The notes beneath the pieces were generated by a model. That model was given only the letters and a program-made list of their open reading frames with translations. It made no database searches and was not told the origin of the DNA. The position numbers and the translations under genes are program-made. Below are positions 13,209 through 14,370 of a stretch of 64,000 bases of DNA, one piece after another. Each line of letters begins with the position of its first letter. The first letter of the stretch is position 1. The stretch is from a bacterium. GTDB taxonomy: Bacteria; SAR324; XYD2-FULL-50-16. The stretch lies in assembly GCA_024275165.1 (NCBI GenBank), contig JAJRZQ010000015.1, positions 1 to 64,000 of the forward strand, read 5' to 3'.

Positions 13209-13291
13209 AAGACCTCCGCAAACTTCAGAGGCGACTTGCAAGCCGGGAACTTCACGCTTCAGCGACTATAGGAACCTCTGAAAAACTCCTT

Positions 13292-13317
13292 GCCTACCGC
13301 TTGTTCAAGCGGTAGGC
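13292..13317. repeat. Perfect 12-bp inverted repeat
   Basis: GCCTACCGCTTG, a 2-nt TT centre, then CAAGCGGTAGGC. The stem is perfect over 12 bp, with a minimal hairpin loop. There is no T-run after either arm, so it is not a standard intrinsic terminator. It lies about 85 bp after the ycgN-like stop. Confidence 0.8.
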
Positions 13318-13660
13318 CCATGCCCTTCGGGCTGATTATAGCCCTTGGGGCGCGTCGAGTTTTTCGGTCTTTTCGGTTGTGAATGAAATCCACAACCTCA
13401 ACGCGAATCAATAAGTACCGCTTTTTGATTTAGCAAAGCGTCCCTGCCTTGCGGGGAAACTCCGCGTTTTTCAGAGTTTCCTATATTGCTCCTCTGTCAA
13501 CTGGCCCGACCTAGGCGCAGCCTACCGACTGCTCCCTTTGCTTTCGCAGAGTTCGCTTGAAAGCGGATCGCCTCGATAATGCTCTACCCGAAACCGCCGG
13601 GGCGGCTCGCGCGAGCGCTCGCTGGGCGTAAGCGCCCCGCTATTTAAATATGCTCCGCGG

Positions 13661-13711: not shown

Positions 13712-13755
13712 TATTAGAAACCTCCGCGTTTTTCAGAATTTCCTATATACGCGGA

Positions 13756-14370
13756 TTAATAAGAAAGGCGTTGCGCCTTTTTCATCCAGCTAAGGGTTTG
13801 TAAATCCTCCGGCGTACCCCGTTGTTCCAAGGTCTCAATCACCGCCTGAAATTGTTCCGGCTTCAGGTTTTGCCCCAGCTTAAACTTCGCGGTGATCTGC
13901 GAAGGAACAATACAAACCACTGCCGTGGCTTTGACCTGCTTGACATAGCGCTGGTCTTGCAGCGAGATCGGCTGGTAGCCCCCTTGGGGCTGAAGCCGTT
14001 GCATCAAGGCGGTGAGTATTTCTATTTTTTCCTCCATGGATTCAACGACTCTCGCGACCCCCTGCAAACTCACCGACAAAAAATATTGGCTGGCATTGCA
14101 GGCTAAATCGGGATCAGTGGCATAAGAAGGAATGAGACTCAAAGGCTCAACCAGAGAAAAATGCACTTGCTGGTTTTTGGTTAAAACCGTCATTTTTTTC
14201 CCTGCCAAACTGGAATGAAACCACAGGGCTCCATCCAGCCAAAGGGGGTTGATTGGAACTTGATAGGGCCTTTGTCACTCATCCAACATCGCCAAAACCC
14301 CCCATTTCGCGCGCTTTAATATCCCTTCAATCTCCGTGGGATCGGTCAGGGCAAACTCCTTTCTTCTCAT
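13756..14370 (-). pseudogene. PNPOx-like FMN-binding protein gene with in-frame TGA
   Basis: Read from the ATG at 14370 (AAGG ribosome site), the product begins MRRKEFALTDPTEIEGILKR and continues to LAMLDE, then TGA at 14275-14277 (codon 32), then QRPYQVPINPLWLDG without a frame change to the stop at 13756. Both sides match the pyridoxamine 5'-phosphate oxidase-like (NimA/PaiB-type) split-barrel family; the stop replaces the variable residue in the 'DE-x-G-R-P-Y' turn. The C-terminus has the family-like FKLGQNLKPEQ and RGTPEDL. Either a recent nonsense mutation, a sequencing error, or recoding. TGA is an ordinary stop elsewhere here. Translation could restart only downstream, for example at 14208, losing strand one of the barrel. 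Confidence 0.8.

Follow-up and report, generated by a model that had tools for sequence, protein, structure and literature searches.

A lone in-frame TGA in an otherwise intact NimA/PaiB-like gene, probably an ordinary premature stop, in a genome that carries selenocysteine machinery

The 64,000-nucleotide stretch of DNA analysed here (the window) carries a gene of the PNPOx split-barrel family whose reading frame is interrupted by a TGA, and the question is whether this codon is a premature stop, an error in the sequence, or a codon that is read through or recoded in the cell. The minus-strand frame opens at ATG 14370-14368 and ends at the stop codon TAA 13756-13758. Around the interruption the codons GAT GAG TGA (14277-14275) are followed by CAA AGG CCC. 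As described in the initial annotation, the gene is otherwise intact, the TGA after codon 31 being the only lesion in the frame of 204 codons (Table 1). The host assembly, most likely from a member of the Lambdaproteobacteria, is a draft metagenome-assembled genome of 2.69 Mb in 47 contigs, estimated as 98% complete, and a search of this genome for a second copy of the gene found none, so that the gene is single-copy.

Table 1. Features of the interrupted gene and its surroundings (positions in the window).
Feature	Position	Strand	Remarks
Interrupted gene, NimA/PaiB-like PNPOx split-barrel family (Pyridox_ox_2)	13756..14370	minus	204 codons, TGA read through
Lone in-frame TGA, codon 32	14275..14277	minus	In the model, falls in the beta-hairpin turn connecting strands 24-29 and 35-40
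31-aa peptide MRRKEFALTDPTEIEGILKRAKWGVLAMLDE	14278..14370	minus	Sole translated part if termination is normal
Inverted repeat CAAAGG/CCTTTG, 6 bp, 23-nt spacer	14240..14274	minus	Immediately 3' of the TGA; forms no stable fold and does not fit the bacterial SECIS model
MITE-like element of ~215 bp, terminal inverted repeats AGGAACCTCTGAAAAAC ... GTTTTTCAGAGTTTCCT	13268-13492		Intergenic, beyond the 3' end of the gene
Solo right-hand end of the MITE-like element	13719-13748		Ends 7 bases short of the stop codon of the PNPOx-like gene

Profile searches supported the earlier claim that family-like sequence runs across the TGA with no frameshift. The read-through protein of 204 amino acids matches Pfam PF12900 (Pyridox_ox_2) across the stop at 65.7 bits, for a cut-off of 27 (5.8e-18), PNPOx_N and FMN_bind_2 matching less strongly, and homologues align on either side of the TGA in one frame. 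Two compensating frameshifts around the TGA were considered and rejected, as the sequences on its two sides match the family without any change of frame or length. With the Nim equivalog models of NCBIfam (NimABCDEF and NimIJ), the score of 54 bits lies far under the cut-offs of 260-270; by this measure the gene does not belong to the Nim resistance genes.

A structure was predicted from the protein encoded in the window, with the stop read as Cys, together with 19 homologues (mean pLDDT 91.1). Foldseek comparison of this model retrieved split-barrel relatives at E-values of 1e-10 to 1e-13, including PaiB, NimA and heme-binding piperazate synthases; solved relatives are 2hti, 2fg9, 1w3o (NimA) and 9vyc (PaiB). 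The protein is thus predicted to have the split-barrel fold, and residue 32, encoded by the TGA, would lie in a hairpin turn. A downstream restart at TTG 14208 (codon 55) was also considered; it would lose the first four modelled strands, which makes a working product unlikely.

An ATG at 14282, likewise on the minus strand, overlaps the codons just 5' of the TGA and opens a short ORF in the +1 frame. This ORF ends at a run of seven A residues at 14193-14199 (GGA AAA AAA TGA), at which slipping by -1 would bring translation back into the family frame. The arrangement is probably due to chance, because the peptide encoded is not family-like.

The closest homologue found, locus L040 from a Spirochaetia metagenome-assembled genome, is 52% identical to the interrupted protein. 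Identity to the Lambdaproteobacteria copies of its own family is lower, at 42-45%. The greater closeness to the Spirochaetia protein hints at horizontal transfer, but its position in the tree is unsure on account of long branches. The gene is also patchily distributed: no match was obtained in 44 of the 58 genomes searched, none of which belongs to the same genus, and for this reason the gene seems to be dispensable in the clade. The neighbours of the gene in the window were sought at eight relative loci with no match.

Beyond the 3' end of the gene lies a MITE-like element, of which at least 40 copies, 90-96% identical, are dispersed in the genome, while a search of ten related genomes gave no match. 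Its consensus is predicted to form a very stable, multi-hairpin fold; over 39 copies 92% of the pair cells stay paired, mostly via G-U changes and not double changes. An Rfam search with the element returned nothing above the gathering score. As far as can be seen, this MITE-like element is unrelated to the TGA.

The state of the remainder of the gene was assessed by comparison with its family. Among the other 83 family rows of the alignment, 52 columns show at least 90% conservation; the interrupted gene departs at six of these, while members outside the dominant Paenibacillus group mostly depart at 6-13. Its branch length in the tree is 0.94, compared with 1.09, 1.23 and 1.27 for the intact relatives L040, L072 and L103. 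Given these few departures and an unexceptional branch, there is no visible decay, and the lesion would therefore be young or nearly silent. No internal stop was found in the homologues examined, none of them congeneric and the nearest 52% identical as given above. The column of the TGA, judged from the alignment, appears variable and tolerant, with D in 55, Q in 10, N in 5 and E in 5 of 80 homologous loci and a few other residues in the remainder. The locus thus combines an inactivating lesion with a single-copy gene that is otherwise intact, the pattern expected of a recent pseudogene.

The reading which we favour, and hold to be probable, is that of an ordinary premature stop: a recent nonsense substitution would have hit a NimA/PaiB-like oxidase gene that is present once and is dispensable, giving either a fixed, very young pseudogene or a strain polymorphism. 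Translation would initiate at 14370 and end after 31 codons; full-length protein would be made at most in slight amounts, via basal, unprogrammed misreading of UGA, with no dedicated recoding signal or suppressor acting at the TGA. This reading includes three inferences: a base that is real in the cell, a dispensable gene and a recent change, the last drawn from the intactness of the sequence alone. A nonsense mutation is given the most weight because the gene is patchy and seemingly dispensable. The absence of further damage would equally fit a functional read-through gene or a sequence error: the same undecayed sequence is expected from a young nonsense mutation or polymorphism, from an erroneous base call and from weak leakage in a functional gene. 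Bacterial genes that are normal but for one in-frame stop are common, and such stops are mostly short-lived, on the scale of population polymorphism (Belinky et al. 2021, PMC7918605).

The main rival to a nonsense mutation is an error of base calling or assembly in the metagenome bin; the gene of the living organism would then be normal, with a sense codon in place of the TGA. A lone lesion in an otherwise undecayed gene, a draft genome in 47 contigs and the intact homologues are all in line with such an error, but the site is not a homopolymer and shows no frameshift. In consensus contigs with good coverage, substitution errors are uncommon and a frameshift is the commoner error, which also counts against this explanation. 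It is considered possible but unlikely.

A functional leak-through is somewhat less likely again. A near-cognate tRNA, probably tRNA-Trp, would misread the UGA at a low but useful rate, and the gene would operate at reduced dose. The turn position tolerates many residues, the sequence 3' of the TGA is undecayed and the base after the stop is C; in E. coli the UGA-C context is leaky. For bacteria, both leakage at UGA and in-frame stops under purifying selection have been documented (PMC7918605), which counts for this possibility as well. Against it, the TGA is conserved in no homologue and no stimulatory structure accompanies it, and such a gene would look the same as one with a young mutation.

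Insertion of selenocysteine had been ranked least likely in the initial annotation, partly on the ground that no sel genes are present. This is true of the window, whereas the genome does contain them. Profile searches identified selA (502 bits) and selB (308 bits with the full SelB model), and a tRNA-Sec scored 69.9 bits and was assigned the anticodon UCA by ARAGORN. The SelB-wing_2 profile had no match in the genome, and an absence of SelB that this first suggested was rejected, since both the full SelB model and the SelB-wing_3 domain matched. In addition, selD (343 bits; contig C41:41853-42773, genome G000, locus L033) itself carries an in-frame TGA (TCG-U-AAKLGP), which we take, by alignment to E. 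coli SelD, to be the catalytic Cys/Sec position. A hairpin CCGACA-GGTC-TGTCGG, with the loop GGTC 21 nt past the TGA, satisfies the bacterial SECIS model. With selA, selB and tRNA-Sec on contigs other than that of selD, the Sec-decoding trait is complete. Given this complete machinery and the TGA in selD with its model-satisfying hairpin, it is very probable that TGA is decoded as Sec in this organism, at least in selD. Molybdopterin-oxidoreductase genes were inspected as a further control, and the matched regions of the six hits contained no TGA. The literature searched contained no paper on selenocysteine in Lambdaproteobacteria.

The presence of selA, selB, tRNA-Sec (UCA) and a TGA-containing selD in one genome is what speaks for a new PNPOx-type selenoprotein, in which the TGA would be decoded by the organism's own SelA, SelB, SelC and SelD. 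The SECIS model applied, taken from PMC13188914, specifies a loop of 3-9 nt with an early G, a stem of 4-16 bp, a distance of 16-37 nt and a stability of -7.5 kcal/mol or lower. No hairpin 3' of the PNPOx TGA fits it, although selD passes the same test and so do 28% of 150 codon positions drawn at random from window genes. At the interrupted column neither Cys nor TGA occurs in any of 80 homologous loci, and no second sequence with an in-frame TGA was found among the homologues, a sample with no congeneric genome. The residue is moreover placed by the model in a turn. Accepted practice asks for both kinds of sequence: the Sargasso Sea selenoprotein survey demanded Cys homologues, plus a second TGA sequence to accept a new family (PMC1088965). 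With no SECIS element and no Cys or TGA at the homologues' column, selenocysteine is very unlikely. Even less credence is given to the idea that the organism's own machinery inserts Sec at this non-Cys turn position of a PNPOx/PaiB-type protein with an unrecognisable or non-canonical SECIS. The earlier ranking of selenocysteine thus survives on the missing SECIS, the missing Cys homologue and the turn position, but not on a lack of sel genes.

The inverted repeat CAAAGG/CCTTTG, with its arms 23 nt apart, is present as reported and is weakly notable. The hint that it matters was not borne out. In window genes, 13% of codons are followed within 45 nt by a 6-bp inverted repeat, and 1.3% by one whose 5' arm begins directly after the codon. 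The sequence past the TGA folds no better than shuffles (z -0.13, +1.43, -0.17), and the loop of 23 nt is beyond the 3-9 nt of the SECIS model. A genome-wide reassignment of TGA or a nonsense-suppressor tRNA, for which nothing but the in-frame TGA itself speaks, is excluded within the 98% complete assembly and keeps a negligible probability overall, because the only UCA anticodon among all 42 tRNA places, each of which was typed, is that of the separate tRNA-Sec and TGA is a normal stop, terminating 13 of the 47 window genes. The search for a suppressor tRNA proposed in the initial annotation therefore produced no candidate. Its list of mutation, error, read-through and recoding was sensible.

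The locus can serve as a worked negative. As the organism decodes TGA as Sec elsewhere, a Sec-aware annotator could miscall the PNPOx-like gene as a selenoprotein gene; the tests for a SECIS and for Cys homologues, in which selD of the same genome acted as positive control, lead to leaving it annotated as an ordinary interrupted gene.

Compared with known bacterial selenoprotein genes, of which selD of the same genome is an example, the PNPOx-like gene has in common an in-frame TGA and a host with complete Sec machinery; it differs from them in having no SECIS and no Cys counterpart, and in that its TGA falls at a predicted turn and not at a redox site. The in-frame stops described by Belinky et al. 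2021 (PMC7918605) resemble it in the single stop, the intact homologous flanks and the absence of decay, but a stop in at least two genomes was required in that study, whereas this TGA is known from one genome. With the known PNPOx split barrels (PF12900) the gene shares the sequence match across the stop and the predicted fold, and it differs from them by its one in-frame TGA.
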